Assembly (NCBI GenBank): GCA_009787625.1
Contig: WQSX01000016.1
Span: 1-52,556, forward strand
Length of the DNA stretch: 52,556 nucleotides
Source: Oscillospiraceae bacterium
Lineage (GTDB): Bacteria > Bacillota > Clostridia > Oscillospirales > Oscillospiraceae
Direction: 5' to 3'
Shown: positions 10,301 through 24,675 of the stretch, piece by piece
Layout: each line of letters opens with the position of its first letter
How positions within the stretch are numbered: position 1 is the first letter of the stretch
Program-made: the position numbers and the translations under genes
The notes under the pieces: model-generated
Told to the model about the DNA's origin: nothing
The model's database searches: none
The model's input: the letters and a program-made list of their open reading frames with translations, nothing else

Positions 10301-10815
10301 CCGTAGCCTATGTAGACATAGCTTTCCGTATAGCATGGTTCAAGATGCACCGCCCTCTGGAATTTTACAGCGCACATTTTTACAGACGCAGAAAAAGTTT
10401 TGCCGCTGAAACAATGACAAAGGGCATTGATAAAGTAAAACGCAAAATCGAAGAACTAAAAGCAAACACCGAAGCAACCACAAGCAAAGACGATAACCAA
10501 CTGACGACCTTGGAGTCCTGCTACGAGTTTTACAAACGAGGTTTTCAGTTCACAAACATAGACATCTACGAGTCAGATGCCGAAAAGTTCCTGATAGTAG
10601 ATGAAAAGACCCTACGCCCACCATTCGCAGCAATAAGCGGAATGGGCGAAACCGCCGCATTCGATCTGGCAGAGCAGAGAAAAAGCAGACAATTTGTCTC
10701 GGAGCAGGAGATTTTAGCGGCATGTCCGAGCGTAAACAAAAACATAATAGCTCAACTAAAAAGCATTGGCGCATTGAGAGATTTGCCCACTAGTAGCCAA
10801 ATGTCGCTGTTTTAG
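7306..10815 (+). CDS. polC: DNA polymerase III PolC-type alpha subunit, lacking the proofreading exonuclease domain
   Basis: Replicative polymerase of low-GC Gram-positive bacteria. Order seen: a short N-terminal domain; a low-complexity linker (about 85-155) that includes the family B repeat; an OB-fold domain (about 157-255, LGRVTVSGEVFSIRNR); a PHP domain beginning ELHLHTKMSEMDA (~262) with AIAITDHGVLQSFP; a zinc-binding segment (HYRCPNC...CPSCGSDY, ~640-675); the palm with PDIDLN (Asp695 and Asp697) and KLDVLGHDNPT (~Asp820); TTGQHPGG; and a C-terminal end QMSLF. At 1169 residues it is far shorter than Bacillus PolC (~1437). The DnaQ-like exonuclease that normally interrupts the PHP domain after YG(M/V)E is absent: the text passes from IIYGVEGYFRND straight to RRYNHITLLVKN. 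The TTG start follows AGAGGAGG. Confidence 0.96.
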   Translation: MNPVPLFEMFPFIRENSSLASDYSSARVTSVKVNSEQETMSLVLALVNDVPPFEIGIIEELIKNEFGLKSVTATATGAAPAFSDENRRGDRPRSPVPIADNSQPTTPTSTPPKPPAKPTATKYAASKKNSAKPPNPAILGRATKVKPIPLSEVDLDLGRVTVSGEVFSIRNRFIEKINAWLINFDITDYTSSITITKFMRGEDKNSYDKATKVAQSIKQGMHLIISGNLSISKYDNDLVLDPQNIVPYEPEQRMDTAEEKRIELHLHTKMSEMDALTDTVDAIKKAAAWGHPAIAITDHGVLQSFPTAAVAASRLKSDIKIIYGVEGYFRNDSREMKRRYNHITLLVKNQAGMKNLYELVTKSHLENYNTRPIIFKSELTQLREGLIIGSACESGEVFEAIVQKKSDEEIEELASFYDYFEIMPICNNNFMIMSDKFEPNTEEELRDLNRKVLELGRKLDKPVVATGDVHFLDPEHEVYRKILQTSKGYKDATSSLPLYLKTTVEMLEEFSYLGKETAFEVVVKNTQKIAEMCETVNPLPEGGKLYVPTLDNSTENLRKLVFDKSVELYGENMPVIIKERIEYELNDILGLGYGVIYMAAQKLVSYLREQHSRVGSRGSVGSSMVAHLAGITEVNPMPAHYRCPNCKNSEFSESYACGADMPDKKCPSCGSDYAKDGFNIPFETFMGFDGDKVPDIDLNIASDSLSEAHKYVYEMFGEEHVFRAGTIGTLKERNAYKAMKKYLEVTGKNVSRAEENRLLSGCLGVKATTGQHPGGLIVIPQDMDLSDFCPAQYPSNDSEKGVTTLHYEYGFLEDNLIKLDVLGHDNPTMLKMLENMTGIDADEIKLDDPDTMALFTTPTVMGLPADDPIIGETGSFGIPEFGTPFVRQMLCDTKPKDFDALIRISGFSHGTNVWLGNAKDLIENKTATVAETISSRDDIMLYLISKGMKDRAAFKVSENIRKGKGIPSGMDEEMKALGVPKWYIDSCNMISYLFPKAHAVAYVDIAFRIAWFKMHRPLEFYSAHFYRRRKSFAAETMTKGIDKVKRKIEELKANTEATTSKDDNQLTTLESCYEFYKRGFQFTNIDIYESDAEKFLIVDEKTLRPPFAAISGMGETAAFDLAEQRKSRQFVSEQEILAACPSVNKNIIAQLKSIGALRDLPTSSQMSLF
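7565..7590 (+). repeat. Family B palindromic repeat inside polC
   Basis: GTAGGGGCGACCGTCCCCGG continuing TCGCCC is a palindrome matching the intergenic B copies at 24724-24750, 27817-27842 and 31012-31036. Here it lies in the coding sequence and is read as RRGDRPRSP in the linker of PolC without breaking the frame. Confidence 0.8.
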
Positions 10816-10992: not shown

Positions 10993-11580
10993 TCAACCTG
11001 CATTATTAATCTTATTCTTCAATGCACCTGCACAAACTGAGAAGCACACGAAAAGTAAGGTAAGAGTCAGAACAATCGATGCCAGCCTAAAACCAAATAG
11101 CGACAAAATAAGTAATAAACCAAACTCAGCGCATAAAATTTTTGTTGTGCGTTTTTTATATAGCTTAATTTCATCATCATCTAAAGGCTTGTTCGCATCT
11201 TGAACCGGAGAAAGCATATACAAAACAGCCACGCAGACAACAGCTGTAATCACAATCATTGGAATATTTACAACGGTCATAATCATATTTGCAGCTATGA
11301 GTAGCAACACAACGGCAATAGCAGATAGAATTAAACACCGAGTATTATTTGAGGCATGGATTCCGCCTGCACACGACCGCAGGGGTATGAACACAAATAG
11401 AAATAACAGACTTTCAAGCGGCATTCCAAGAATAAACCCAATCGTCAACGTAACAGCTATATTAAACAGAATTACAAAGCCGTTTTTAAATCCAAAAACG
11501 TAAATCTCAGAATCCACCTCATTTATGACGCTATTTTCCACAAGGCTTTCCGTTATCTTTAAGGCAAATTTATTAAACAT
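10993..11580 (-). CDS. agrB: AgrB-like accessory gene regulator protein (AgrD-processing membrane protease)
   Basis: Polytopic membrane cysteine endopeptidase that trims and cyclises the AgrD precursor to a thiolactone signal. The 195-residue protein has several hydrophobic segments. The catalytic constellation Arg68, His75, Cys82 (in PLRSCAGGIHASNNTRC) has the same spacing as Arg70/His77/Cys84 known for Staphylococcus AgrB. The start at 11580 follows AAGGGGAAC on the minus strand. It is divergent from the LytTR regulator gene and separated from its likely substrate gene (13976-14206) by two genes, which differs from the classical agrBDCA order. Confidence 0.9.
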   Translation of the reverse strand: MFNKFALKITESLVENSVINEVDSEIYVFGFKNGFVILFNIAVTLTIGFILGMPLESLLFLFVFIPLRSCAGGIHASNNTRCLILSAIAVVLLLIAANMIMTVVNIPMIVITAVVCVAVLYMLSPVQDANKPLDDDEIKLYKKRTTKILCAEFGLLLILSLFGFRLASIVLTLTLLFVCFSVCAGALKNKINNAG

Positions 11581-11815
11581 ATGTTCCCCTTGTCAGATTA
11601 TTACTAAAAATCAATAGTACCATAAAAACTTAGTATAAGAACTGAAATGTAATGAATATATCGAATTTTGTAAGTTTTGCAAATTTCACAATGAATAATG
11701 ATAATAAAAAATCAATATAAGGACTATACATAAACGAAATATTTTTATATACTTTAGTTAGCAATTATAAGCCAATAGTGTCGAAGAACACACGGGTATC
11801 TAAGCGAGGCAAGAA
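11581..11815. promoter_or_regulatory. Divergent promoter region between agrB and the LytTR regulator gene
   Basis: A 235-bp A+T-rich gap separates divergent starts, so it must hold promoters for both directions. TATACT at about 11750 is a possible -10 box for the plus-strand genes. No convincing pair of LytTR-type repeats was identified by eye. Confidence 0.45.
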
Positions 11816-12544
11816 ATGATCAGTATAGCAATATGTGACGACAATGTTAGTTTAACTGGGGAGATAGAACAATTTGTTTTAAATTTAAGCCGCTCGATGC
11901 AAGAGAAAGTATATATCCATGTTTTTTTTTCCGCTGAAAAATTCTTTGAGTACTTGAAAGAATCCGGTGATGTCTTTGACATCGTTCTGATGGACATAGA
12001 AATGGGAAAAGTTTCAGGAGTCGCTGCGGGGCAGAGATTGAGAGATGACCCTGCATATGACCAAACGCTCCTGATCTATATTTCAGGCCATAGCTCCTAT
12101 TTCGCAGAACTAATTCATTTACATGCATTTACTTTTATTCAAAAACCATTTCAAGCAACAGACTTTAATATCAAGATGACTAAAGCGATAAAGCATGTGC
12201 TAAGTCGGCGCTTTGTGACCCCATTTCCCGATTTTGTATTTGAGAACAAAGGCGATAAAACTTATGTGCCGATGAAATCAATAATGTTTATTGAAAGTGA
12301 TAATAGAAAGGTAAAACTGCATACTACTACACAGGAACATTCATATTACGGCAAACTCAATGCAGCAGAAAAACAGTTGCCAAAAGATTTGTTTTGTCGC
12401 ATAAATAGGTCATATATAGTCAATTTTTCGCATATGGATAAGATGACCTCTCAGAATTTAATTATATCAGGGCAAACCCTGAATATCAGCAAAAAATATA
12501 GAGAAACTACAAAACTCGCCTACTTTCGCTATCAAGGTGGTTAA
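11816..12544 (+). CDS. LytTR-family response regulator (AgrA-like)
   Basis: A 242-residue regulator. An N-terminal receiver (1-~125) shows the acidic pair at Asp8/Asp9, the phosphorylation site Asp60 in FDIVLMD, and the conserved Lys in FIQKPF. The C-terminal LytTR DNA-binding domain (~140-240) contains DKTYVPMKSIMFIESDNRKV, the LFCRINRSYIVNFSHM core and ISKKYRE. It is expected to be phosphorylated by the kinase encoded 2 nt downstream and to bind direct repeats in target promoters, probably agr and the peptide cluster. Base composition is more A+T-rich than in the housekeeping genes to the left. Confidence 0.92.
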   Translation: MISIAICDDNVSLTGEIEQFVLNLSRSMQEKVYIHVFFSAEKFFEYLKESGDVFDIVLMDIEMGKVSGVAAGQRLRDDPAYDQTLLIYISGHSSYFAELIHLHAFTFIQKPFQATDFNIKMTKAIKHVLSRRFVTPFPDFVFENKGDKTYVPMKSIMFIESDNRKVKLHTTTQEHSYYGKLNAAEKQLPKDLFCRINRSYIVNFSHMDKMTSQNLIISGQTLNISKKYRETTKLAYFRYQGG

Positions 12545-12546
12545 AT

Positions 12547-13860
12547 ATGGGATATGATATTCTTTCGTGGGTTGCTTATATTGTAGCGAGTGCAATTTTT
12601 TTAGTAGTAGTTTTTTCATATTATTCGGCAATATTTAGCCGGAAGCATAGTCGTGCAGTGACATATGGCATTGGTATAGCACTTGTTTTTATAAACTTTT
12701 TTCTTATGTTTGCAAACAGTGCAATGTTGAATATAACCGTGAGTATTTTCACATTTACAGTGATAGCCCTTTTGTTTTCAGGCAGTCTCACAAATCGCTT
12801 AATCTTCACAGTGTTTCTCTTGATTGCTGCTATAGTAAGTGAGTTTATTGTAAGTTATGCTATAGCCATTTTTGGAAATATTTCACCCTATGATATGCAA
12901 TTTGGCACACCTGCATTTATCATAGGGCTTATGCTTTCAAGGACGCAATTTGCAATAATAGCGAGAACCATTTCAAGAATCGCAGAAAATCGAAAGCTCC
13001 CACCAATCAGCATAAAAAGGTGGATAGTGCTCATTGCGCTACCCATCGGGAATTTACTGGTGCTTTACAATTTTCTGTTTCAACGCAATCATACTGCATT
13101 AGACATATTCTCATCACTCGTCGTCATGACAACGGCTATTGCAGTGTTGACTGTTTACGGAAAAATACTCTCGGATTATGAAGTTGAGGTTAAAAATCGC
13201 TACCTAGAGGAGCTGCTGAGCCATCTCCGTTATCAATACGTTATGGCAGAGAGATCCATAAAGTTAGTATCAAAAACAAAGCATGATATAAAAAATCTTC
13301 TCATAGGATTTAAAACAGGGATACAGAATCAAAATATAGAAAGTGTCCAAAATCATATTACGAAAATATTAGACGAGATAGACGCATACGATGGCCCGGC
13401 GAAGAGCGGTAACTTGGTTATTGATTCCATCATCAACTACAAATTTGGTATTGCGAATGAAAATCAAATACATTTTTCAACGGACTTGAATATTTCAAAT
13501 AATCTAAACCTAGACTCGGTGGTTGTCTGCCAAATAATTGGCACTGCCCTGGATAACGCAATAGAAGCTACCGAGAAAATTGAAGATGCTGAAAAGAAAG
13601 TCGTTGAAATAACCGTGAAGTCAGAGCAAGGAACCCTTTCAATTCAAATAACCAACCCATACGTGGGGGACATAGTAACTAACACCAAAGGTGGTATCAT
13701 GTCTTCTAAGAAAAATCACCGCTCAGAAGGTATAGGGCTTCAAAGTATTATGGGAGTTGTTTCAGAAAATGACGGCATATACAATGTTGATTATAGCGAC
13801 GATAGGTTTAATCTTAGGGTTTTGCTTTTTGATACTGAACAGGCTGAAAACAAAAAATAG
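12547..13860 (+). CDS. AgrC-like sensor histidine kinase (GHKL type)
   Basis: A 437-residue membrane kinase. About six hydrophobic segments occupy residues 1-205 and would form the peptide sensor. The cytosolic part carries the H-box SKTKHDIKNLL with His246. A GHKL ATPase domain follows, with N-box QIIGTALDNAIEATEKI and G-box EGIGLQSIMGVV. This is the AgrC/ComD class that senses cyclic peptide signals. The gene starts directly after the regulator stop, and the autoinducer gene agrD lies 115 nt downstream. Confidence 0.92.
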   Translation: MGYDILSWVAYIVASAIFLVVVFSYYSAIFSRKHSRAVTYGIGIALVFINFFLMFANSAMLNITVSIFTFTVIALLFSGSLTNRLIFTVFLLIAAIVSEFIVSYAIAIFGNISPYDMQFGTPAFIIGLMLSRTQFAIIARTISRIAENRKLPPISIKRWIVLIALPIGNLLVLYNFLFQRNHTALDIFSSLVVMTTAIAVLTVYGKILSDYEVEVKNRYLEELLSHLRYQYVMAERSIKLVSKTKHDIKNLLIGFKTGIQNQNIESVQNHITKILDEIDAYDGPAKSGNLVIDSIINYKFGIANENQIHFSTDLNISNNLNLDSVVVCQIIGTALDNAIEATEKIEDAEKKVVEITVKSEQGTLSIQITNPYVGDIVTNTKGGIMSSKKNHRSEGIGLQSIMGVVSENDGIYNVDYSDDRFNLRVLLFDTEQAENKK

Positions 13861-13913
13861 CAATTTACTACAAAAATCGGCCTTTTCACTACATTGGCGA
13901 AATCTAATGACAC

Positions 13914-13950
13914 TTTTTGGTACACTCCTTTATAGGCAGTGTGCCAAAAA
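13914..13950 (+). terminator. 13-bp hairpin between agrC-like gene and agrD
   Basis: Arms 13914-13926 (TTTTTGGTACACT) and 13938-13950 (AGTGTGCCAAAAA) pair over 13 bp with one G-T pair, around CCTTTATAGGC, itself partly self-complementary. It lies upstream of the agrD ribosome site. It may be a terminator/attenuator separating the two-component genes from agrD and the peptide operon, or an operator. Confidence 0.6.
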
Positions 13951-13975
13951 ATTTTTGAAGGAGAAATTTGATATC

Positions 13976-14206
13976 ATGAGTAAATTTATTTCAACCTATG
14001 GGTGTATTTTGAGTGCGTGTGCCATGCTGGTGGCTGAATACACTGCAAGATTTTGTTTCTTCGTATTCCATCAACCTGAAATTCCAGAATCAGTGAAAGT
14101 ACTTAGGAATTCACGACTATTACAAACATGGCCGAAAGATAATGAGCGCATTCGTTCGGAGCCTCCAGTAAGATATAATAATCACATTCATGAGGAAAAG
14201 ATATGA
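13976..14206 (+). CDS. agrD: AgrD-like cyclic-lactone autoinducer peptide precursor with a long tail
   Basis: A 76-residue ORF starting at ATG 13976 behind GAAGGAG (13958-13964). The N-terminal half is amphipathic/hydrophobic (MSKFISTYGCILSACAMLVA). Residues 24-39, ARFCFFVFHQPEIPES, carry the clostridial AgrD pattern in which Cys plus four residues is followed by an HQPE-P motif. The predicted thiolactone ring is Cys27-Phe-Phe-Val-Phe31. It should be processed by the AgrB at 10993-11580 and sensed by the adjacent AgrC-like kinase. The C-terminal tail after the PES motif is ~37 residues, clearly longer than usual. Its stop codon overlaps the ATG of the next gene (ATGA), coupling it to the peptide cluster. 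Confidence 0.87.
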   Translation: MSKFISTYGCILSACAMLVAEYTARFCFFVFHQPEIPESVKVLRNSRLLQTWPKDNERIRSEPPVRYNNHIHEEKI

Positions 14207-15396
14207 TTCCAAAACTCAATAGTATCATTTCACACGCATATAAAGAGGTTGAATATTACCATCGGCTTTTTGATGAAAAAGGGATTAACACAGAAAAAAT
14301 CAATACAATGCAAGCATTTGAACAAATTCCATTTCTTTCAAGGGATGAACTGCAAAGCGATGAAAGTCGATTTATTGCTGATTGCTGTCAATATTTTCCG
14401 TGGAATGAAAAGCTTGAACTACGAAGAACTATAAGTTCGTCAGGTCATTTTATGAAGATTTATTGGAGCGGTGGTGATAACGGCAAATCAACGGATTACT
14501 TCAACATGTTCAGAAAAGATCTAAGAAACGTCTCACCACTATCGAAAATTTGTAGTTTTTATGGTACCTTTTATATAGGTAATAAATTATCCGAACATAA
14601 GGATACATTTTTAAGTCATGACGGCGCACATATCTTATTTTCCCACAGGGGGCTTTCAAGTTCAAAAATAAGTGACTATCTAAAAAGAATGGACGATTTT
14701 GGGGTTAATGGGCTTTACTTACAACCAAGTGTTGCAGTTTTACTTGCCGAAACAATTAAGAGCGAAAATCTGACCGTGCCTAATACTTTAGTTTATATTG
14801 AATTGACGGGAGAGTTTTTGAGCGATGACCATAGAAAACTTATCCAGGAGGTGTTTCAAGTCGAACTTGCATATTCATATAACTTGGAAGAGTTTAACAC
14901 AATTGCTTACGAATGCGGTCATGATTCGCTTCATATATTAGAGAATAATGTGGTTGTTGAAGTAATTAAAGATGGAAAATCGGTTTTTGATGAAATCGGA
15001 GAGATTTGCATTACATCTCTAACAAATCATGCAATGCCATTGTTGAGAGTTTTGACGGGCGACACGGGAATTTTAACTGAAGCAAAGTGCGAATGTGGTG
15101 CTACTACTAATACGTTGAAATTAATAAGTACTCACCTCTGCAACTTCATAACAACAGAAGATGGACAAAAAATAAGTGTTTGTGTTCTAAGCAGTATAGT
15201 CGAACATACAAATGAGTCCATGCAATTTGCTATTCGAAAATTTTGTATTACGCAAAAGAGCTCGAATCTTATTGATGTAGAGATTTCCTTGAAGCCCGCT
15301 TTCGAAGGTTGGCACAATTCGGTCAAAAGAGAATTTTTGAAGAGTGTAAAAGAATTCAGATTGCCAGAAGTAGGATGGAGTTTCACTTTTTATTAA
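14203..15396 (+). CDS. Adenylate-forming enzyme of the F390 synthetase / phenylacetate-CoA ligase type
   Basis: A 397-residue protein of the CapK/PaaK-like adenylating group (F390 synthetase-related). Recognisable landmarks are an N-terminal AYKEVEYYHRLFDEKGI and FEQIPFLSRDELQ, the ATP-loop-like TISSSGHFMKIYWSGGDNGK, LVYIELTGEFLSDDHRKLIQ, and VELAYSYNLEEFNTIAYECG. A C-terminal part has LLRVLTGDTG and a CECGA motif. Such enzymes activate a carboxylate with ATP. Homologues are known beside CcpM-type radical SAM enzymes, but their substrate there is unknown to me. The start overlaps the agrD stop by 4 nt. An acyl-carrier-like protein is encoded three genes downstream and could be a partner, although it lacks the carrier serine. 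Confidence 0.8.
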   Translation: MIPKLNSIISHAYKEVEYYHRLFDEKGINTEKINTMQAFEQIPFLSRDELQSDESRFIADCCQYFPWNEKLELRRTISSSGHFMKIYWSGGDNGKSTDYFNMFRKDLRNVSPLSKICSFYGTFYIGNKLSEHKDTFLSHDGAHILFSHRGLSSSKISDYLKRMDDFGVNGLYLQPSVAVLLAETIKSENLTVPNTLVYIELTGEFLSDDHRKLIQEVFQVELAYSYNLEEFNTIAYECGHDSLHILENNVVVEVIKDGKSVFDEIGEICITSLTNHAMPLLRVLTGDTGILTEAKCECGATTNTLKLISTHLCNFITTEDGQKISVCVLSSIVEHTNESMQFAIRKFCITQKSSNLIDVEISLKPAFEGWHNSVKREFLKSVKEFRLPEVGWSFTFY

Positions 15397-15430
15397 GTCT
15401 GAGAGTATTCAATTTTAAGAGGTAAGCAAA

Positions 15431-16870
15431 ATGATTAAACAAAATCTTCCATTTATTCATTTAATAAAAACGCCCATGAACAATTATGTTTATGATGTAA
15501 ATACAAATTCATTTATTGAACTTAGTGATGAAACATATGCTTATCTTGAGGATATGCAATACTGCGGGGTCATGAATACACCTGCAAGTCAAAATGTACA
15601 AGAAAGTATAGAACGCTTGCAAAAACAAGGTTTGTTATCAACTAAACGTCCAAGAAAGATTGAGCACTCACAGAGCAAGTTTTTAGAAAATTCACTCAAA
15701 AGAAATATCAACCAAATGACCTTACAGATAACTCAAGAGTGTAATTTTAGATGTGCTTACTGCTCATATGGTGCAAAAGATTTTCAATATCAAAGAGAGC
15801 ATTCTCCTAAAAAAATGTCAATGGAAACAGCATTTAAAGCGGTTGATTTCTATGTTGCCAACTCAGTAGGTCGCGATACTTCGACTGTAGGGTTTTATGG
15901 AGGAGAACCACTACTGGAGTTTGAGTTAATTAAATGTATTGTGGAATATGCTGAGAAAAAGTTCTTTGGAAAGAATCTTAAATTTCCGATTACAACCAAT
16001 GGTTCTTTATTAACGCCGAGAATTGCAGAATATTTATCAAGCCATAATTTCAGTATTACTATCAGTTTAGATGGCACATCAGAAATTCATGATAGATCCA
16101 GAAAATTTGCAACAACAGGTGAGGGAACATTTGCGACAATAATTAAAAATTTAGAAGAAATAAAAAAATATTATCCGACATTATTTGAAAGAATTTTATT
16201 CAACGTTGTCATCGACCCAAGATACTCGTGTAACGACATGCATACTTTGTTCACTGACAATCATATATTCAAAAGTTCAGAAATTATGAGTGGGATTATC
16301 GAGGATATCTACAGTATTGAAAAGGTTGTGCCAAGCGATACTTATATAAGCGAGGACAAGCATCACAACCTAAAAGTTTATTTGTCATTACTTGATCGAT
16401 ATCCGCATGAAAATGTATCAAAGGTGGCAAAAAGGGAAATTATAACCAGGTATTCAAAACTAAAAAATGACATGACCATATTTACTGAACTCTCGGATGT
16501 AATGGCACCAGGCGGGCCTTGCATTCCAGGCGGTCAAAGATTGTTTATCGGTGTTGATGGCGATTTTTATCCTTGTGAACGTGTAAGTGAGACATCAGCG
16601 GTAATGAAAATTGGGAATCTCAATGATGGTTTTGACATCAATAAGGCAAAAGATATGTTAAATATTGGGCAGCTGACTGAGGAAGATTGTAAAAACTGTT
16701 GGGCAATAAGGCACTGCCAAATATGCGTAAAACATTGTGACAATAACGGGTATTTGTGTGCGGAATTCAAGCGAAGCCATTGTGAGGCAATCAAAAACCA
16801 AGCAGAGCTTCAACTGAAGGATTATCTTTTACTCAAAGACTTTGGTGTATCAATTAATAGTTTCGAATAA
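15431..16870 (+). CDS. Radical SAM/SPASM peptide maturase (CcpM-like, Cys-rich peptide type)
   Basis: A 479-residue enzyme. Residues 1-~90 resemble a RiPP-recognition region. The radical SAM cluster motif CNFRCAYC gives Cys104, Cys108 and Cys111 as 4Fe-4S ligands. GFYGGEPLLEFELI and ITTNGSLLTP are typical of the barrel. The C-terminal SPASM part is Cys-rich (GGPCIPGGQRLFIGVDGDFY, PCERV, then CKNCWAIRHCQICVKHC and a final HCEAI) and should bind two auxiliary clusters. From memory it fits the family of 'Cys-rich peptide radical SAM maturases' that act on CLI_3235-type precursors. The expected substrate is the peptide at 18437-18667, probably by thioether formation; that chemistry is inference. 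Confidence 0.9.
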   Translation: MIKQNLPFIHLIKTPMNNYVYDVNTNSFIELSDETYAYLEDMQYCGVMNTPASQNVQESIERLQKQGLLSTKRPRKIEHSQSKFLENSLKRNINQMTLQITQECNFRCAYCSYGAKDFQYQREHSPKKMSMETAFKAVDFYVANSVGRDTSTVGFYGGEPLLEFELIKCIVEYAEKKFFGKNLKFPITTNGSLLTPRIAEYLSSHNFSITISLDGTSEIHDRSRKFATTGEGTFATIIKNLEEIKKYYPTLFERILFNVVIDPRYSCNDMHTLFTDNHIFKSSEIMSGIIEDIYSIEKVVPSDTYISEDKHHNLKVYLSLLDRYPHENVSKVAKREIITRYSKLKNDMTIFTELSDVMAPGGPCIPGGQRLFIGVDGDFYPCERVSETSAVMKIGNLNDGFDINKAKDMLNIGQLTEEDCKNCWAIRHCQICVKHCDNNGYLCAEFKRSHCEAIKNQAELQLKDYLLLKDFGVSINSFE

Positions 16871-16889
16871 AATGTGAAAGAGGATGAAA

Positions 16890-18020
16890 ATGGAACTAGA
16901 TCTAGTAGGCGTATATCCGTATAGTGCAGAGTTTGATCCTTTTTTGAGGCATGCATCGTTGCTTGATAAGACATTTCGAATTAAGGCTTTAATTTCACCT
17001 TATGGCTGGGGTTTAGTGGGGCAAACTTTTTCACTGGAAACTGAGAGAATAGACTTGACCGTGGTATCTGAGTTTGACACAGTGATCAGCGATATAGATA
17101 CTATTTTCATTCCATATTTTTATGCAGATGAAAATATGGAAACCTTAATAATCAAAGATATTGAGGATATTGCTCTATTTGTAAAAAAAATTATATGCGC
17201 CGCGAAGTTATCTAAACAAAACACTAAAATTCTTGAGAATATATGTGAAGCAGCAGGTTGCATATTTGAGGACTTAAATCAGTTAACACATGTTGAGCAA
17301 TATGAACTAATGGATTCATTTGAGGAGAATCCGGCAATAGAAAACATTGACGTACCAATTATAGTCATTGCCGGACTTTGGGAAGAGACCGATAAGTTTG
17401 AAGTTTCGTTGGCACTTCGTAAGAAGTTCCTTCAAAACAATTACAAAGTTACACAAATTGGTTCAAGAAACTGCTGTGAGCTATTTGATTTTCATTCATT
17501 TCCCGGATTTATGTTGCGTTCTCATGTGGATGCTGTAGACAAAATTATACACTTTAATCGCTTGATAAAGCACCTAACGGAAAACGAGCGTCCCGATATT
17601 ATCATCTTAACAATACCGGGAGCAATAAAAAACTTATCTGATGAAATAACAAAAGGATTTGGTATATTACCGCATATCATATTTCAGTCCATAATGGCAG
17701 ATTACCTCATTTTTTGTACGATGTATGATGAGTGTTCAATTCAGTTTTTGCAAGAAATATCCACAATGTGTAAATATAAATTTGATTGTCCAGTGGATTG
17801 TTATCACATGTCGAATATGCTGTTTGACCTGGCTGAGTCTAAATCCAGAAAGCGAGTCGTGATAAATCGTTTTGACCGAAATGATGTGTCACTTGCAGTG
17901 GAACTTGGATTTAAAAACAGCCCGATTTCGGTTATGAATATATTGGAACAAACTTCGCAGGATATGCTATTTGCAATGATTATAGATAAGCTGGCAGGTA
18001 CAGATTGTCAAATTATTTAG
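16890..18020 (+). CDS. Peptide maturation system protein (TIGR04066-like)
   Basis: A 376-residue cytosolic protein that accompanies CcpM-like enzymes; I recognise it as the TIGR04066-type maturation protein, whose biochemical role is unknown. The N-terminal part (1-~80, LVGVYPYSAEFDPFLRHASL) looks like an alpha/beta domain. A second domain from ~156 begins VPIIVIAGLWEETDKFEVSL and resembles a degenerate P-loop NTPase: G-x6-K positions fit, but the usual G-K-[ST] is D-K-F. This domain resembles the C-terminal domain of the protease at 21482-22645. ATG 16890 is preferred over 16884 because AGAGG at 16878-16883 is properly spaced only for it. Confidence 0.78.
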   Translation: MELDLVGVYPYSAEFDPFLRHASLLDKTFRIKALISPYGWGLVGQTFSLETERIDLTVVSEFDTVISDIDTIFIPYFYADENMETLIIKDIEDIALFVKKIICAAKLSKQNTKILENICEAAGCIFEDLNQLTHVEQYELMDSFEENPAIENIDVPIIVIAGLWEETDKFEVSLALRKKFLQNNYKVTQIGSRNCCELFDFHSFPGFMLRSHVDAVDKIIHFNRLIKHLTENERPDIIILTIPGAIKNLSDEITKGFGILPHIIFQSIMADYLIFCTMYDECSIQFLQEISTMCKYKFDCPVDCYHMSNMLFDLAESKSRKRVVINRFDRNDVSLAVELGFKNSPISVMNILEQTSQDMLFAMIIDKLAGTDCQII

Positions 18021-18037
18021 TTTGTGAGGTGATAATA

Positions 18038-18331
18038 TTGCATTTATGTAATAAGAGTTCTGAATTAGAAAAAATTAAACTGAAAATATTGTATCTGCTA
18101 AATACAAAGTTTGATGTTCCATCACTTACAGTTCACGAGTTAACAGATGATTACTTTGAAACGACATTTCCACTTACCCCATGTGAAATGGTGTATTTGC
18201 TTCATTTTATTGAAGATATGCTTGACTTCAAGTTTACTAAGTCAGATATTGATGACATATGTATATATACTATAAATGGGTTAACTCAAATTATTGAGAC
18301 AAAGCAATCATTTTCAGAAAGACGTTCATAA
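18038..18331 (+). CDS. Acyl-carrier-related small protein lacking the carrier serine
   Basis: A 97-residue protein with TTG start at 18038 chosen because GAGGTGAT lies 6 nt upstream; the open frame begins earlier inside the previous gene. The helical pattern (LEKIKLKILYLLNTKFDV, then DDYFETTFPLTPCEMVYLLH, FIEDMLDFKFTKSDIDD) matches an acyl carrier fold. At the D-S-L position that carries phosphopantetheine in true ACPs, the sequence reads Thr47-Pro48-Cys49, so no prosthetic group can attach in the normal way. It matches the 'acyl carrier-related' proteins known from CLI_3235-type peptide systems. It may serve as a scaffold or recognition module rather than as a carrier. Confidence 0.75.
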   Translation: MHLCNKSSELEKIKLKILYLLNTKFDVPSLTVHELTDDYFETTFPLTPCEMVYLLHFIEDMLDFKFTKSDIDDICIYTINGLTQIIETKQSFSERRS

Positions 18332-18343
18332 AGTAACAAATGT

Positions 18344-18362
18344 CACTATACGGCCGATAGTG
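18344..18362. other. Small hairpin upstream of the precursor peptide gene
   Basis: CACTAT and ATAGTG are paired around ACGGCCG, 13 nt after the acyl-carrier-like gene. It may limit read-through into or protect the precursor transcript. The remaining gap to 18436 shows no clear promoter. Confidence 0.35.
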
Positions 18363-18436
18363 CTAAAGTTCTTCATGTTACGCATATCTCCAGCAAAGTT
18401 TCAACTGGATTATTTTTTGAGAAAGGAGGTAACCTC

Positions 18437-18667
18437 ATGAAGAAGTTAAGAAAAATTCGCTCTACCCGAATGGATACAGTAGAAGCTTATAGTTGTAATT
18501 GTTCTGGTGTAACTTGTAGCTGTAGTTGTATGAACTGTAATTGCATGCCTAACAACACACCACACACAGTTATGACATCAAATCTTCGTGCTAACACAAG
18601 TAGTTCAAACTTTGATTCGTTTTTGATAGGTGCAAGGACTGCAACGATGAATTTTAGACCATGGTAA
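18437..18667 (+). CDS. Cys-rich RiPP precursor peptide (CLI_3235-type)
   Basis: A 76-residue precursor behind a very strong ribosome site (GAAAGGAGG). The basic leader MKKLRKIRSTRMDTVEAY contains the D/E-T-V-E-A-Y motif that I recall from CLI_3235-family putative bacteriocins. It is followed by a core with seven Cys at 20, 22, 27, 29, 31, 34 and 36 in a C-x-C spaced pattern rich in Ser, Asn and Met. A Ser/Thr/Asn-rich tail ends in FRPW. It is the likely substrate of the SPASM enzyme at 15431-16870, cleaved by the protease at 21482 and exported by the ABC protein at 22635. Final structure and activity are unknown. Confidence 0.87.
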   Translation: MKKLRKIRSTRMDTVEAYSCNCSGVTCSCSCMNCNCMPNNTPHTVMTSNLRANTSSSNFDSFLIGARTATMNFRPW

Positions 18668-19018
18668 ACGCATTTTCTGACAATCCTTGTACACTTTTAC
18701 AAGCCGAACTGAGAGTAAAACGTTCGGCTTGTAAGGCTAAGATAATTTTTCTTAATCTGAGTATGTGCAATATTTTTGTCTGGATGTATCTCCCGAAAAC
18801 TTAAAGTTGACATGTGGGATTGTTTAATTAGTCGTGGGAGTAATATTTCGAATTTGCGCTATAAAAAGAGTCATTGCACAAGTAGACCTTGCGCATTATA
18901 AACATAACTCTGTGATTGCTCGAACGACAGCGATGCTGGAAACAATCATATTTCAACTATATTTTCAGATATACCGTCTGGGCAAATAGTTTGGCGAAGT
19001 GGAGGCATATAGGTCATT
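18668..19018. other. Gap between the precursor peptide gene and the lipoprotein gene
   Basis: Contains the hairpin at 18699-18732 and about 285 nt in which I see no gene of the right codon pattern on either strand. A new promoter for the lipoprotein-protease-exporter genes is likely here but no clear -35/-10 pair stands out. Confidence 0.5.
18699..18732 (+). terminator. Terminator or attenuator after the precursor gene
   Basis: Perfect 11-bp stem: ACAAGCCGAAC (18699-18709) with GTTCGGCTTGT (18722-18732). It is followed within about 15 nt by a short run of T (ATAATTTTTCTT). The placement directly after the precursor would give it a higher transcript level than the downstream genes. Confidence 0.72.
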
Positions 19019-21427
19019 ATGCAAAAAGTTCATTTTATTTTATTAATCATAACTCTAACATTACTTGCACTTTTCGGAGCAGGCTGTTCAAATAATTCAC
19101 CACCCACAGATCAAGAAACTGATTATATCACTGGAACTCGCGCAGAAACCTTGAGTACTTGGGGCGATGTAAATATTGACACTCATTTTTACCTTGTTGA
19201 AAATCTACCTGTCAACTTTCCAAGGAGAGCTATTGTAGACGGAACTTTCGTTCATAATGATAAAATATTCACATATTTAACAGAGCTTGGAATTAGCGGA
19301 GAAACAGTAATTTCAACAACGCTCTATGTAATTGGTATAAATCCAGACAGCAGGGAAATTACTGAAACGACAATACAATTTTCCGGACATATACGTGTGG
19401 GTGGTTTAAGTATAACAGATGACGATATCATAGCATTATTTGCAACCAATCATCTTGAAGAAGATGAGGATGCTCCCTATATACCTGCCTTTTATGCGAA
19501 ACATGATTTTGATGGAAATGAGCTTAGCAAGATTAATTTTGAAGCTCTATTTAATTATAGTTCAGGAAGTATCAATGTTTTGGAGGTGCTTTTTGATGTG
19601 CAGGATTATCTTGTAATATCGGTGATGCACAATGAATTACAAGATTTTAGGTCGAGTATTTATTTAGTGAACTTAGAATCAAGTGAGATAAACGTAATAA
19701 ACCGACGAGAGGAAACATTCTTCGGGCATATTTCAATTTTGCCAGATAACAGAGTTGTTCTCTTAGATTGGTCAGGACAGGAATTGTCTTTAAGGGAAAT
19801 AAAAGTTTCAGAAGGTAAGCTAGGAGAAGTGGTAGCAACACTAGGCAGGAATGTTCTGCAAATTTCTGATGTTGGCAATAACAATCCTTTCGATTTAATG
19901 ATGGTAGATGACAGTTTCCTGTTTGGATACAACATTGAAGAAAATACTTTCACTACATTAATCAGTTGGACTGAAGTAGGAATGCAATGGTTTGAGTACC
20001 TAGGAACAATGGAAAACGGCAGAGTGGCATGCCTTAGACGCACCTGGAATGAAGAAAATGAACAAGAACTAAGTTTATACATATTAAAGCCAAGTGAGCG
20101 TTATGCTGCAGATGGACGGATAACACTTACTTTAGCTGGCGTAAATATCGACACTGAGTTCAGAGAGGTTGTTTCGTCTTTTAATAGGGCAAACGCCAGA
20201 TATAAGGTAATTGTAGAAGATCACAGCAGTACTCCATTTGCACCTGGAGGGCATGATGATTTTGGACAAGAGCTTTCGCGTTTTCAAATTGAGCTAATAA
20301 CAGGGAATCTTCCTGATGTAATATACGATTCTTCAATGGCTTTAGCCACAACGATGGCAAATCAAGGAATGCTTCTCAACCTTAATCCTTTCATTCAAGA
20401 CGATGATTTGCTGAGTATTGAGGATCTTGTACCTAGCTTTCTATCCAGTTTGCAACATTACGATAATTCCCTCTATAAGATAGCAAACACTTTTCTAATT
20501 ATATCGCTTTATAGTACGCCTGAGGTTCTGGGTGATATCACTATAGACGATTGGACAGTGGAAAAATTACTTGAAACTTTTAGAAACAATAACCACACAC
20601 AGTATCAATATCCACTAGGATTTAATGTAACACCACAATGGTTTGTCTCATTTATGCTTTCCAGTGATGTAGATTATTTTATATCAACATCTACATTTGA
20701 GGCGAATTTTGAAAACGAAACGTTCATAAATATATTAAATACAGCAAAAATCCTCTACGATGCAATCGAGAGGGGTATTGAAAGAGAAAGAATAGATGAT
20801 ATTGTAGACTTTGGACGAGGCAAAATACCAATACTGTATGAGATTTTTTCAGGTGCAGGTTTTTTTATGCTAATGGTTAATTCGGTTGAAGAAATCATAC
20901 CAATAGGTTTTCCCACACAACATGGCGGTATACATCGTGTGATGCAAGCTGAGCCAACATTAAGTATCAGTTCAACAACAGATCACCCAGAAGGTGCATG
21001 GGAGTTCATTCGTTTCTACTTGCTAAACGCCGGGAGTGGTGATAATTTTCGCTCTCTTCCTTTGCGTAGAGATTTGCTAGAAACAGTAATCGAGGAAAAT
21101 GTTGTACCTCTATACGGTTATGATGAAGATGGGAGTTGGGGAATTGATAAAATCTCACATGGTTTCATAGAATTTAGAGATGAAGTAGGATTTGGGGGAC
21201 TGGTTATTCCACTGGCTCCCAGAGATTACAAACCAGAAGCAATACTGCGGTATCTAATAGAAAATGCGACACCGTTTACTCAGACAGAGTTTCTTTTGGA
21301 TGAATTATGGTTTAGAGTACTGGCTGATGATTTAACACCTTTTTTTGCAGGTAGCAGATCAGCAGAAGAAACAGCCAGAGTAATGCAAAGCAGAGCGCAG
21401 GTATTTTTGGCAGAGAGACAGAGGTAG
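19019..21427 (+). CDS. Lipoprotein: extracellular solute-binding protein with N-terminal propeller-like domain
   Basis: An 802-residue lipoprotein. The signal peptide ends in the lipobox LFGAGC (Cys at ~23). Residues ~45-360 are a chain of short beta-rich units (for example LYVIGINPDSREI, IYLVNLESSEIN, ISILPDNRVVLLDWSGQ) that suggest a beta-propeller. Residues ~370-790 look like an ABC-type family 1 solute-binding protein (EFREVVSSFNRANARYKVIV, GNLPDVIYD, HPEGAWEFIRFY). No permease genes follow; instead the protease and an exporter do, so it may bind the exported peptide or another ligand at the cell surface. Role in the cluster is inferred from position only. Confidence 0.8.
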   Translation: MQKVHFILLIITLTLLALFGAGCSNNSPPTDQETDYITGTRAETLSTWGDVNIDTHFYLVENLPVNFPRRAIVDGTFVHNDKIFTYLTELGISGETVISTTLYVIGINPDSREITETTIQFSGHIRVGGLSITDDDIIALFATNHLEEDEDAPYIPAFYAKHDFDGNELSKINFEALFNYSSGSINVLEVLFDVQDYLVISVMHNELQDFRSSIYLVNLESSEINVINRREETFFGHISILPDNRVVLLDWSGQELSLREIKVSEGKLGEVVATLGRNVLQISDVGNNNPFDLMMVDDSFLFGYNIEENTFTTLISWTEVGMQWFEYLGTMENGRVACLRRTWNEENEQELSLYILKPSERYAADGRITLTLAGVNIDTEFREVVSSFNRANARYKVIVEDHSSTPFAPGGHDDFGQELSRFQIELITGNLPDVIYDSSMALATTMANQGMLLNLNPFIQDDDLLSIEDLVPSFLSSLQHYDNSLYKIANTFLIISLYSTPEVLGDITIDDWTVEKLLETFRNNNHTQYQYPLGFNVTPQWFVSFMLSSDVDYFISTSTFEANFENETFINILNTAKILYDAIERGIERERIDDIVDFGRGKIPILYEIFSGAGFFMLMVNSVEEIIPIGFPTQHGGIHRVMQAEPTLSISSTTDHPEGAWEFIRFYLLNAGSGDNFRSLPLRRDLLETVIEENVVPLYGYDEDGSWGIDKISHGFIEFRDEVGFGGLVIPLAPRDYKPEAILRYLIENATPFTQTEFLLDELWFRVLADDLTPFFAGSRSAEETARVMQSRAQVFLAERQR

Positions 21428-21481
21428 AGTCGTTAGTTTAGAGAAACATTAATTAATTATTTGTTGATTGTTAAGGTGCAA

Positions 21482-22645
21482 ATGAAATATATAACAGCAA
21501 TAATTGATACTGCAATTGACCGAAAAAATCATGCAAAACACCTCAAAGAGTTAGAGTTTTTTATGATAGATTCAGGTGAAATGATTCAACTTAAAGAATC
21601 ACGTTTACTTGAGAACCCTTCTCATGGCGGAGAGTGTATACGTTATTTTGAAGATGGCTCACAATCATGTGCAGATTACTTTATACTTTTACAATCTACA
21701 GAAGATGGAGTGTGCAATCTCCACGACTTGGTAACCTCCCTGAACTGGTGCATAGTCAATGGAGTATCACTTATAAGCCTAAGCATGGGAACAACTCAAT
21801 ACAGCGATTCAGCTGAGTTCGCAGGGACGATGAACTGCATGCACAAAAATGGAATCTGTCTCATAGCAGGAGCGAGTAATAGTCGAAAATTATCATATCC
21901 GGCATGTTTTGATGAATGCATTGGAGTGTGTCACGATTATACAAACGCAACCATCAAAGGTCAGTTTGCATATATCGAAAATCCGTACGACGGAATAGAA
22001 GTTGTGTTAAATCCTAAAGCTTCAAGTGTTGCTTTTATTGACAGCACAAGTATGGCTACAGCCTATTTTGCGGGCCTTGTCGCAAAAGCGATAAAAGATG
22101 GAGACACAAAACCTTCCGAAGTGAAAAAATGGATAGCCTCAACAGGAGAAAAACTAAATGCTAAAGCAATCTATGACTACACACGTAATTCCATATTTTA
22201 CGATTATACGGAAGATGTAGTTGTAGTAGCATTAAGCACAGAAAAAAAAACATTGGCATTTCGCAGAGAACTACAGAAATTATTTCTTGAAAATAAGTAT
22301 TTTTGTTTGTCATTGTTTGCATCAGAAAATGTTGTGCAGAAAAATAATTTATTTAATCATGAATTTATTCGAGTTACTAACAACAGAGATTCATCTTACG
22401 AAGACTATGTTGAACTAATGATAAAACTCTGCGAGCCCAACTTGATATTAATTGATTTAAATGAGTACGAAGCTCCAACAGATGTTATTATTTCAAAAAC
22501 AGTTCAAACAGGAAGAAAAGGTGATGTTTTTATGTTAAACTTAGAACAAAACACCCCGCAAGAGACTTTTGAACAGATTGTCAGCCACTTTGAAAGTGAC
22601 AAAGATTCAGAAACCGATGATATTAAGGACAACCATGACCAATAA
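21482..22645 (+). CDS. Subtilisin-like (S8) protease, probably the RiPP leader peptidase, with an extra C-terminal domain
   Basis: A 387-residue protein without signal peptide. The subtilase triad is readable: Asp9 (AIIDTAID), His48 (NPSHGGEC), Ser190 (DSTSMATAYFAG), with oxyanion Asn133 (AGASNS). The catalytic domain is compact (~1-235). A C-terminal domain (~245-370) starts VVVVALSTEKKTLAFRREL and resembles the second domain of the maturation protein at 16890-18020. ATG 21482 is chosen for AAGGTG just upstream; the open frame extends to 21461. Being cytosolic and next to the exporter, it most likely removes the leader from the precursor. The stop overlaps the exporter start by 11 nt. Confidence 0.86.
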   Translation: MKYITAIIDTAIDRKNHAKHLKELEFFMIDSGEMIQLKESRLLENPSHGGECIRYFEDGSQSCADYFILLQSTEDGVCNLHDLVTSLNWCIVNGVSLISLSMGTTQYSDSAEFAGTMNCMHKNGICLIAGASNSRKLSYPACFDECIGVCHDYTNATIKGQFAYIENPYDGIEVVLNPKASSVAFIDSTSMATAYFAGLVAKAIKDGDTKPSEVKKWIASTGEKLNAKAIYDYTRNSIFYDYTEDVVVVALSTEKKTLAFRRELQKLFLENKYFCLSLFASENVVQKNNLFNHEFIRVTNNRDSSYEDYVELMIKLCEPNLILIDLNEYEAPTDVIISKTVQTGRKGDVFMLNLEQNTPQETFEQIVSHFESDKDSETDDIKDNHDQ

Positions 22646-24515
22646 TGCAAAAAATATAGTAAAAAATCTTCCAGAACTTACAAAGACGCTAAAATGGTGT
22701 CTTTCCCTATTATGGCAAACATCAAAATTTTATACAATAGTCCGCATATTTACTGAATTGCTGACACCAATATTTTCAACAGTAGCGATATTTATCGGGC
22801 GAGTTGTTATAAATATGCTTGCAGGGCAAGCAGCTTTTAATGTGAACCCTGAAAATATTCTCATTATTTTACTAGCTGGATTGTGTGCCGTAGCTATAGT
22901 GCGAGGACTTTCGCAGAACATCATGCAGTATTGCAGAACTATGCAAGACGATATGATGAATGCAAAAATATCGGAAATAATGATGGAATATGCATTCAAA
23001 GCCGATATTGAATATTTTGACAACCCAGAGTATTACGACAAACTCAACTCTGCAAACAGAGATTCATATGCAGTAAACAATGTAGTATGGAACACCATAG
23101 GCATTATCAGCAGCGGGTTTTCTTTTTTACTAGCCTTTGTAATACTATCGCAAATGAGCTTAGTTTACAGCGTTGCCTTAATAATCGCTGCAATCCCTGC
23201 ATCAATAGCAGCTGCAGGTTTTGCAAAGGCGTTATACATGTTGAGCTTAGAACAGATAAATGGAATGAGGCAAATGGGATATATTCAGGGAATATCTTCC
23301 GAGAGAATATTCACACAGGATTTTCGGCTATTTGATATAGGATACAGACTAAAACACAGATACAAGCGAATTTGGGAAGGTTTGTTTTATACAAGACGAA
23401 AAAAAACACATAAAAGAACGGTATTTTTATGTGTTTTGGAAGCTCTACCCGAAGCAGTTATAGCACTGATAAGCATTGACATAGCCCTTAGTGTTATAAG
23501 TGGAAATGCAACTGTTGGTGATTATTCTTTATTTGTGGGTCTGACTGCACAGCTTTGGGGAGCAATATCTATGCTCTCTTTATCTGCAATGCAAGTTTAT
23601 GATAACCGTATGCAACTAGATAATTTCAAGAGTATAAACGATTTTAAAAGCAAGATAAAAAATGATGGAAAACTAGAGCTTAAAGGCATTGATTCAATAG
23701 AGTTTGATAACATCTGCTTTACTTATCCTGGAGCAGTTGATAAAGCTTTGGATGGCATAAATCTTACACTAGATAAAAACACAAAAACTGCAATAGTCGG
23801 TTTAAACGGCTCAGGAAAATCAACTTTGATAAAACTTTTGCTCAGACTATATGAGTCCGATTCAGGTGTTATAAAGATAAATGGAAAAGATATTAGAGAA
23901 TATACATTACACTCTATTAGAGCAAATTTCAGTGTATATTTTCAAGGTATGCAAAACTTAAGTTTTACACTTGAGGAGAACTTTGCATATACAGATTGCG
24001 ACAGTGAGAACGATGACATTGAAGATAGAATCAAAGCAGCACTATCAGCGGCGGGTGCAGATGATATTTGGGAAAAATGTGATAAAGGCATTAAAACAAG
24101 CATCACAAGGTTTTTCTCTGATGATGGCATCGAACTCTCAGGCGGTCAGCATCAAAAACTAGCACTTGCAAGGGTGTTGTTCAGAAACCGCTCTGCACTT
24201 ATTTTAGATGAGCTGTCATCAAACCTCGACCCAAAGGCCGAGCATGAAGTTTTTGAGGCTTTGAGAAAAATAACAGACGGAAAGATGACTATTTTCACAT
24301 CGCACAGACTGTCTAATGTTTTTCTTGCCGATAGAATTATTGTTTTAGAAAATGGAAAAGTAGCAGAAGACGGAACTCAGGAGCAACTACTTAAAAACAA
24401 ACAAAGATTTGCAGAGTTATATAAATATCAATCTGATAAGTTTGCGACAAATGAAAATTCAAGTAGTGTAGAGTGGACAATACCAATGGTTTGGAGGCAT
24501 GGACACTTAGAGTGA
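22635..24515 (+). CDS. ABC transporter, membrane domain fused to ATPase (peptide export)
   Basis: A 626-residue half-transporter. About six membrane segments lie in residues ~30-330 (for example VALIIAAIPASIAAAGFAKA). The ATPase domain has Walker A GLNGSGKST near residue 390, a Q-loop VYFQGMQNL, signature LSGGQHQKLALARVL, Walker B ALILDELSSNLD, and a switch His in TSHRLS. There is no N-terminal C39 peptidase, consistent with a separate leader protease. ATG 22635 is used because TAAGGA lies 5-10 nt upstream and because the earlier open frame overlaps the protease gene. It is the last gene of the peptide cluster and is followed by a strong terminator. Confidence 0.9.
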   Translation: MTNNAKNIVKNLPELTKTLKWCLSLLWQTSKFYTIVRIFTELLTPIFSTVAIFIGRVVINMLAGQAAFNVNPENILIILLAGLCAVAIVRGLSQNIMQYCRTMQDDMMNAKISEIMMEYAFKADIEYFDNPEYYDKLNSANRDSYAVNNVVWNTIGIISSGFSFLLAFVILSQMSLVYSVALIIAAIPASIAAAGFAKALYMLSLEQINGMRQMGYIQGISSERIFTQDFRLFDIGYRLKHRYKRIWEGLFYTRRKKTHKRTVFLCVLEALPEAVIALISIDIALSVISGNATVGDYSLFVGLTAQLWGAISMLSLSAMQVYDNRMQLDNFKSINDFKSKIKNDGKLELKGIDSIEFDNICFTYPGAVDKALDGINLTLDKNTKTAIVGLNGSGKSTLIKLLLRLYESDSGVIKINGKDIREYTLHSIRANFSVYFQGMQNLSFTLEENFAYTDCDSENDDIEDRIKAALSAAGADDIWEKCDKGIKTSITRFFSDDGIELSGGQHQKLALARVLFRNRSALILDELSSNLDPKAEHEVFEALRKITDGKMTIFTSHRLSNVFLADRIIVLENGKVAEDGTQEQLLKNKQRFAELYKYQSDKFATNENSSSVEWTIPMVWRHGHLE

Positions 24516-24643: not shown

Positions 24644-24675
24644 CGAGCGTCGCAAGTCGGCGCTCGTGCTTTTTT
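24644..24675 (+). terminator. Rho-independent terminator of the peptide cluster
   Basis: A 9-bp stem (CGAGCGTCG, 24644-24652, with CGGCGCTCG, 24658-24666; one G-T pair) with a 5-nt loop CAAGT is followed by TGCTTTTTT. It ends the 11.8-24.5 kb cluster. Confidence 0.88.

Follow-up and report, generated by a model that had tools for sequence, protein, structure and literature searches.

The locus considered here raises the question of whether a cell-density signal and a modified peptide can be produced as one unit. To our knowledge, the triggers of most radical S-adenosylmethionine (SAM) peptide clusters are not known. The whole stretch of DNA that was analyzed, herein referred to as the window, covers 52,556 nucleotides of contig WQSX01000016.1 from an Oscillospiraceae bacterium (assembly GCA_009787625.1). 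A block of twelve genes in the window (positions 10993 to 24515) joins a complete agr quorum-sensing gene set to genes for a ribosomally synthesized and post-translationally modified peptide (RiPP) of the CcpM kind, and this link recurs in other genomes. We judge it fairly probable that the block is a quorum-controlled RiPP island.

The agr module and the peptide genes

The block lies between polC (ending at 10815) and pilT (24799-25884). Its first gene, agrB, is located on the minus strand, opposite to all eleven other genes, which follow on the plus strand in the order LytTR regulator, GHKL kinase, agrD, F390/PaaK-like gene, CcpM, TIGR04066, carrier-like gene, Cys-rich precursor, lipoprotein, subtilase, and ATP-binding cassette (ABC) exporter. 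The original prediction, made from the sequence alone, had named these genes with their coordinates, and gene-by-gene matches to family profiles found its list to be right.

All parts of an agr quorum-sensing system (AgrB, AgrD, GHKL kinase, and LytTR regulator) are present. The agrB gene (10993..11580, minus strand) encodes the membrane peptidase/exporter for AgrD (PF04647, 120 bits), which contains the motif GG-x-H-(6)-C that we take to be typical of AgrB. A putative divergent promoter region read from the sequence (11581..11815) separates agrB from the genes for the agrA-like LytTR response regulator (11816..12544, plus strand; PF04397, 67.8 bits; PF00072, 45.8 bits) and the agrC-like GHKL sensor kinase (12547..13860, plus strand; PF14501, 71.8 bits). 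The signal precursor is encoded by agrD (13976..14206, plus strand; TIGR04223, 32.2 bits with a cut-off of 19); its ring is predicted to be C-F-F-V-F, located before HQPEIPE, with a long C-terminal tail. As had been claimed, the TGA stop codon of agrD overlaps the ATG start codon of the first gene of the peptide cluster, the F390-like one (ATGA), so the signal and the product would rise together.

The gap between the kinase gene and agrD (13861..13975) contains a near-perfect dyad, TTTTTGGTACACT / AGTGTGCCAAAAA, both arms of which were located at about 13914-13950. The 77 bases at 13900-13976 fold at -22.1 kcal/mol (z -4.1), forming a main stem at 13916-13948 and a second, A/U-rich stem. The same gap contains a weak direct repeat before agrD, TTTACTACA/TTCACTACA, with copies 21 bp apart; an equally good pair is present in another gap. 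The dyad may be a terminator, an operator, or an attenuator, and both elements are treated here as leads only.

The peptide half of the block is of a known kind (CcpM/TIGR04066/CLI_3235). The maturase CcpM, a radical SAM/SPASM protein (15431..16870, plus strand), scores 531.8 bits with TIGR04068 (cut-off 500), the TIGR04066 maturation protein (16884..18020, plus strand) scores 294 bits (cut-off 200), and the Cys-rich precursor (18437..18667, plus strand) scores 27.6 bits with TIGR04065 (cut-off 26). Thus, these three members of the CLI_3235/CcpM system exceed their curated cut-offs, and the families had indeed, as originally stated, already been described in outline, the same genes appearing in two papers (PMC10731318; PMC4573289). 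The precursor has the leader MKKLRKIRSTRMDTVEAY with seven Cys residues after it. Among 62 precursor-like peptides, including that of the window, conservation is seen at the leader ends (MKKL.K and T-V-E-A-Y) and for several Cys residues, the remainder being variable.

The unit is closed by a terminator-like hairpin after the ABC exporter gene (24644..24666, plus strand). This hairpin had been predicted correctly, but not as the only strong one: strong hairpins are also found at 13900-13976 and after the precursor gene (18695..18736, plus strand; -20.1 kcal/mol, z -5.7).

Recurrence of the agr link in other genomes

The distribution of the pairing was analyzed in stretches of up to 20 kb fetched around TIGR04066 and CcpM in genomes from the genus, the class, and three families, and annotated with hidden Markov models (HMMs) from the window genes. 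TIGR04066 matches were found in 18 of the 391 genomes sampled from the class, 16 of them above the cut-off. Scanning genome contigs with a single protein as query, for which an alignment would have been preferable, yielded one locus (L048). In total, 60 CcpM loci were obtained, i.e., the 62 fetched without L056 and L092, which have no CcpM. CcpM was counted leniently in this set, as L053 and L054 have partial or TIGR04066-less copies, and several loci are cut by contig ends.

AgrB was found in the fetched stretch of seven CcpM loci: the window, L058, L061, L062, L083, L088, and L091. An AgrD-like open reading frame (ORF) adjoins AgrB in all six loci other than the window, as seen by eye and, for L061, also by phmmer. 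Locus L058 has, on one strand, the regulator, kinase, AgrB, AgrD, a small Cys-rich ORF (recognized by eye, with no HMM match), CcpM, TIGR04066, the carrier-like protein, and the ABC protein. The genes of L083 are contiguous on one strand, in the order regulator, kinase, AgrB, AgrD, one further gene, precursor, CcpM, TIGR04066, carrier-like protein, subtilase, and ABC protein. The agr genes of L088 directly follow the ABC gene, contiguous on one strand with the peptide genes, and other genes lie between agr and the peptide genes in L061, L062, and L091. Additionally, agr was found 8 kb from CcpM in L120, on the margin of the fetched stretch L075; the AgrB of L120 is sister to that of L062.

With the window and L048 excluded and random placement assumed for the AgrBs counted in 38 genomes, AgrB was seen in 6 of the 58 remaining loci versus 0.81 expected (p 1.5e-4). 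Outside the genus g77, 6 of 38 loci have AgrB (p 1.6e-6), with the split made after seeing the data. The SCIFF maturase was used as a control in the same genomes, and AgrB was found within 10 kb in none of its 37 places, as read off the tables. These gene neighborhoods support a linkage of agr to RiPP genes beyond chance, in agreement with the original view that the two are not mere chance neighbors in one strain.

A related set of ten sibling loci (L154-L163), comprising all the long TIGR04066-like matches found, contains a subtilase fused with TIGR04066 (553-621 aa) and a radical SAM gene. AgrB is present in four of them (L154, L155, L158, and L161), the AgrB of two loci having been known before fetching. 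Six of the ten belong to genomes with AgrB counts, and AgrB was found in two of these six versus 0.083 expected (p 0.0026).

When 39 AgrBs were placed on a tree, the linked ones, 11 in number, were scattered and needed 7 label changes, with at least 4 forced by well-supported branches. Some branches of this tree are long, L120 is labeled as unlinked despite the distance of 8 kb between its agr and CcpM, and a change may be either a gain or a loss, so the number of changes is not that of the origins. A single clade (support 100/98) is formed by five of the linked AgrBs. The possibility that this clade is dedicated to RiPP clusters (five of five on the tree) was rejected for the wider type when 397 genomes of one family were searched by means of a profile built from four clade AgrBs: CcpM was found in 3 (L184, L185, and L187) of the 20 new loci inspected, with L184 sharing its genus with a seed. 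Three of the four AgrB loci above 280 bits and none of the 16 below have CcpM; several loci are on short contigs. Thus, the agr-CcpM pairing is recurrent but not obligatory. The proposed check for the same gene order in other genomes found the pairing in six further CcpM loci and these three, with a varying gene order. Among the follow-up loci, L188 (4480-10300) and L189, from two genomes, have two tandem agr modules (regulator, kinase, and AgrB) beside a run of small genes.

The block also differs from its surroundings in base composition. G+C content in 2-kb intervals is 35-38% within the block versus 44-46% in the adjoining intervals, confirming the claim that the region is more A+T-rich than both sides. 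Counted per gene, it is 35-38% in 11 of the 12 genes and 28% in one, with surroundings of about 45%, and at third codon positions (GC3) it is 24-36% in the twelve genes versus 45-50% in four flanking genes. This composition fits the proposed transfer of the whole block. The marks of such a transfer were not found: end repeats of the block were looked for with no result, and PolC was absent from the flanks (at most 1.5 kb) of every match fetched when the PilT neighbor was searched in the genus, so no empty site could be shown. The window polC itself (7306-10815) encodes 1169 aa that align from residue 336 to position 610 of the 1445-position PolC model; Pfam listed no exonuclease domain for it, and it is possibly a PolC without the proofreading domain.

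The same composition would be expected if agr and peptide clusters merely gathered in AT-rich variable islands and traveled together, with RiPP genes that have their own promoter and do not respond to the signal. We regard this explanation as possible but unlikely. It is favored by the scatter of the linked AgrBs and their varying arrangement, by the hairpin/dyad between the kinase gene and agrD, and by the CcpM loci without agr in the fetched stretch (53 of 60). The same-strand, contiguous or near-contiguous order in L058, L083, L088, L184, and L187 argues against it, as do the overlap of the agrD stop with the next start and the SCIFF control.

Several points weigh against quorum control of the peptide genes, beginning with those 53 loci. 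No agr was found in the fetched stretch of any of the 20 loci of the best-sampled genus, g77, so the CcpM system does not need agr, and only 3 of the 20 follow-up AgrB loci have CcpM. The hairpin/dyad before agrD may split the unit. No kinase or regulator was recognized in the fusion locus L161, which has AgrB. A scan for LytTR-type consensus repeats, without a shuffle control, found no convincing regulator site in the gaps of the window and several relatives, the scores before agr and RiPP genes being about the same as elsewhere. Within the genus of the window, the four CcpM contigs with TIGR04066 (L049-L052) come from three genomes and stop 175-309 bases upstream of ccpM, so the agr link is not checkable there.

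Two further observations concern contig ends. The CcpM operons of L050 and L051, from one genome (G005), have a common upstream stretch of 164 bases with 98.8% identity, at which both contigs break (near 8931 in L050 and near 10026 in L051). This stretch may be a promoter common to both operons or part of a longer regulatory cassette that is repeated. In G018, an agr contig (L119) ends with about 60 bases that also start a contig with a CcpM-like gene (L053), which hints at adjacency.

Maturation proteins and proposed leader handling

The TIGR04066 protein is perhaps distantly DUF1611-like. Its family profile reaches PDB 2g0t, which we take to be a DUF1611 protein, at 2e-5. A Pfam scan of 25 TIGR04066 proteins found DapB_N in three (best 8e-4) and DUF1611 in one (0.005); since DapB_N scores better, the DUF1611 reading is weak. 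An AlphaFold model of TIGR04066 from two sequences had a predicted local distance difference test (pLDDT) value of 40 and was not used.

A related domain is found at the C-terminus of the subtilase (21461..22645, plus strand; PF00082, 23.2 bits with a cut-off of 21.8), the putative leader protease. The relation was detected by profile-profile comparison of the families (hhalign probability 98.1, E 1.3e-13); the window subtilase alone matches the TIGR04066 HMM at noise level (0.4 bits). The TIGR04066 domain may handle the leader and hand it to the protease. Maturases of three fusion loci were scanned; two of them are lachnocin maturases (NF038170, 838 and 805 bits), and the third is not. A comparable set of enzymes, QhpD, QhpE, and QhpF (a radical SAM thioether maker, a cytoplasmic subtilase, and an ABC exporter), matures quinohemoprotein amine dehydrogenase. 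Unlike the window genes, these make an enzyme subunit, and the window subtilase scores 70 bits with the QhpE family NF049966, below the cut-off of 165.

The carrier-like protein (18005..18331, plus strand) was recognized by phmmer relatives and alignment. It scores 18.6 bits with TIGR04069 (cut-off 70), and single-sequence phmmer ties it to the carrier-like proteins of equivalent position in L062 (3e-6), L050 (2e-4), and L063 (3e-4). The position of the phosphopantetheine serine was set by a reference, which is probably a genuine carrier protein and is encoded by a neighboring gene. Among 59 aligned carrier-like proteins, this position is occupied by Pro or Ala in 45 and by Ser in 3 (reference included). 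The window protein has Pro there, which speaks against a role as an acyl carrier.

The F390/PaaK-like protein (14203..15396, plus strand; NF045666, 96 bits with a cut-off of 300; PDB 4r1l, 6e-17) appears to be a degenerate adenylate-forming enzyme. The alignment that was examined also contained nine ordinary relatives, of which eight belong to the genus and one to another family. Both the GR[ST]DDM stretch and the whole GKA.R end, which we take to be the A8 and A10 motifs of PaaK/F390 enzymes, are kept in all nine relatives and lost in the window protein, and its A3 motif reads SGGDNGK versus S[ST]GTTG[KTR] in the relatives. HMM annotation found an F390-like gene in none of the 59 other CcpM loci, some of which are cut by contig ends. 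Because the carrier-like proteins mostly lack the serine and the F390-like protein has lost A8 and A10, a simple activation-and-carrier step is unlikely, and the notion of an adenylating enzyme serving a carrier protein is not supported.

These losses, together with the absence of the F390-like gene from other CcpM loci, also make it highly improbable that the F390-like, carrier-like, and TIGR04066 proteins add an acyl or other group, such as an N-cap, yielding a product of a new chemical class. The match of TIGR04066 to 2g0t and the single DUF1611 hit are points for such an addition, as is the blocked N-terminus of the antibacterial peptide SacP23, described below.

Proposed working and comparison with known systems

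Under quorum control, the block would work as follows. AgrB would cut and cyclize AgrD into a five-residue thiolactone. At high cell density, the kinase would phosphorylate the LytTR regulator, which would activate both the divergent agrB/regulator promoter and the strand with agrD and the peptide genes. CcpM would cross-link the Cys-rich core by thioethers, and TIGR04066 and the carrier-like protein would be partners that bind the leader rather than carry acyl groups. The subtilase, bearing the TIGR04066-like domain, would remove the leader after EAY, and the ABC protein would export the product. The lipoprotein might protect the producer or bind the peptide. A narrow antibacterial resembling SacP23 is the most likely product.

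The ABC exporter (22569..24515, plus strand; PF00005, 98.8 bits with a cut-off of 25) probably has its true start inside this ORF. Its best NCBIfam match is TIGR02203 (MsbA) with 252 bits, below the cut-off of 602. The lipoprotein (19019..21427, plus strand) consists of an N-terminal part and an SBP_bac_1 domain (PF01547, 33.7 bits). Among the loci examined, the N-terminal part was found only in the genus of the window, with relatives in L050, L114, and L117. These are large solute-binding-protein (SBP)-type lipoproteins located beside agr in L114 (353-5123) and L117 (3-815) and within CcpM clusters in L050 (2924-5278) and the window.

If quorum control is true, the inducer of each agr-linked island can be read from its own agrD as a short ring peptide, which would offer a direct way to turn the product on, and quorum sensing would be tied to competition among anaerobes. 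The agr-CcpM pairing in other bacterial families suggests that cell density may be the cue for making such peptides. Additionally, the domain shared by TIGR04066 and the protease, together with the serine-less carrier, narrows the possible roles of the unexplained maturation proteins. A broader proposal is rather doubtful and offered tentatively: agr would have been recruited repeatedly as a switch across the whole superfamily of TIGR04066-dependent radical SAM peptides, with the autoinducer and a peptide weapon made here from one transcript, and the broken adenylating enzyme and serine-less carrier would be re-used, with the protease-shared TIGR04066 domain, as a scaffold that handles the leader and not to perform acyl chemistry.

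The SacP23 cluster of Paenibacillus polymyxa #23 was expressed in B. subtilis, and the purified product has m/z 3404 (PMC10731318). SacP23 inhibits several Gram-positives, but not L. monocytogenes, C. perfringens, L. plantarum, or Gram-negatives; its N-terminus is blocked to Edman degradation, and its bridges were not solved (PMC10731318). The original statement that no product of this system is established was therefore too strong, as SacP23 comes from the same gene set. Both clusters contain an ABC exporter, CcpM (TIGR04068), TIGR04066, a subtilase, and a CLI_3235-family precursor, and TIGR04069 is present in the SacP23 cluster (PMC10731318). Unlike the window, the eight genes listed for that cluster include an extracytoplasmic function (ECF) sigma-24 gene and no agr, F390-like, or SBP lipoprotein genes (PMC10731318).

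The CA_C0082 gene of C. acetobutylicum encodes a LanM-like protein, is located beside agr and under its control, and has a role in granulose formation (PMC10301443). As in the window, an agr operon stands directly beside a RiPP-synthetase-like gene; unlike in the window, the LanM-like protein lacks conserved catalytic residues and other lanthipeptide machinery is absent (PMC10301443). By this precedent, the modified peptide could be a second signal or an intracellular effector instead of a bacteriocin, and the SBP-type lipoproteins beside both agr and CcpM in the genus of the window would agree with such a role. We consider it quite improbable, since the subtilase and exporter are as in the antibacterial SacP23 (PMC10731318), and the variable core of the 62 precursor-like peptides is weapon-like rather than signal-like.

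The sactipeptide-like cluster of Roseburia intestinalis L1-82 contains TIGR04068, TIGR04066, TIGR04069, a subtilase, and an ABC protein, with no precursor recognized (PMC4573289). It shares CcpM, TIGR04066, the subtilase, and the ABC protein with the window, and the passage describing it does not mention agr (PMC4573289). Lachnocin-type clusters (NF038170; L155 and L161) resemble the window in having a related radical SAM maturase, subtilase and TIGR04066 parts, an ABC exporter, and a nearby AgrB. Their maturase belongs to another family: those of L155 and L161 score 838 and 805 bits with NF038170, versus 215 for the window CcpM (cut-off 550). As predicted, no description of agr alongside CcpM or lachnocin clusters was found in the open-access literature, judged by titles and abstract openings among the matches listed. 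Thus, the peptide half of the block is already known, and the agr coupling is the new part, which survives the comparison.

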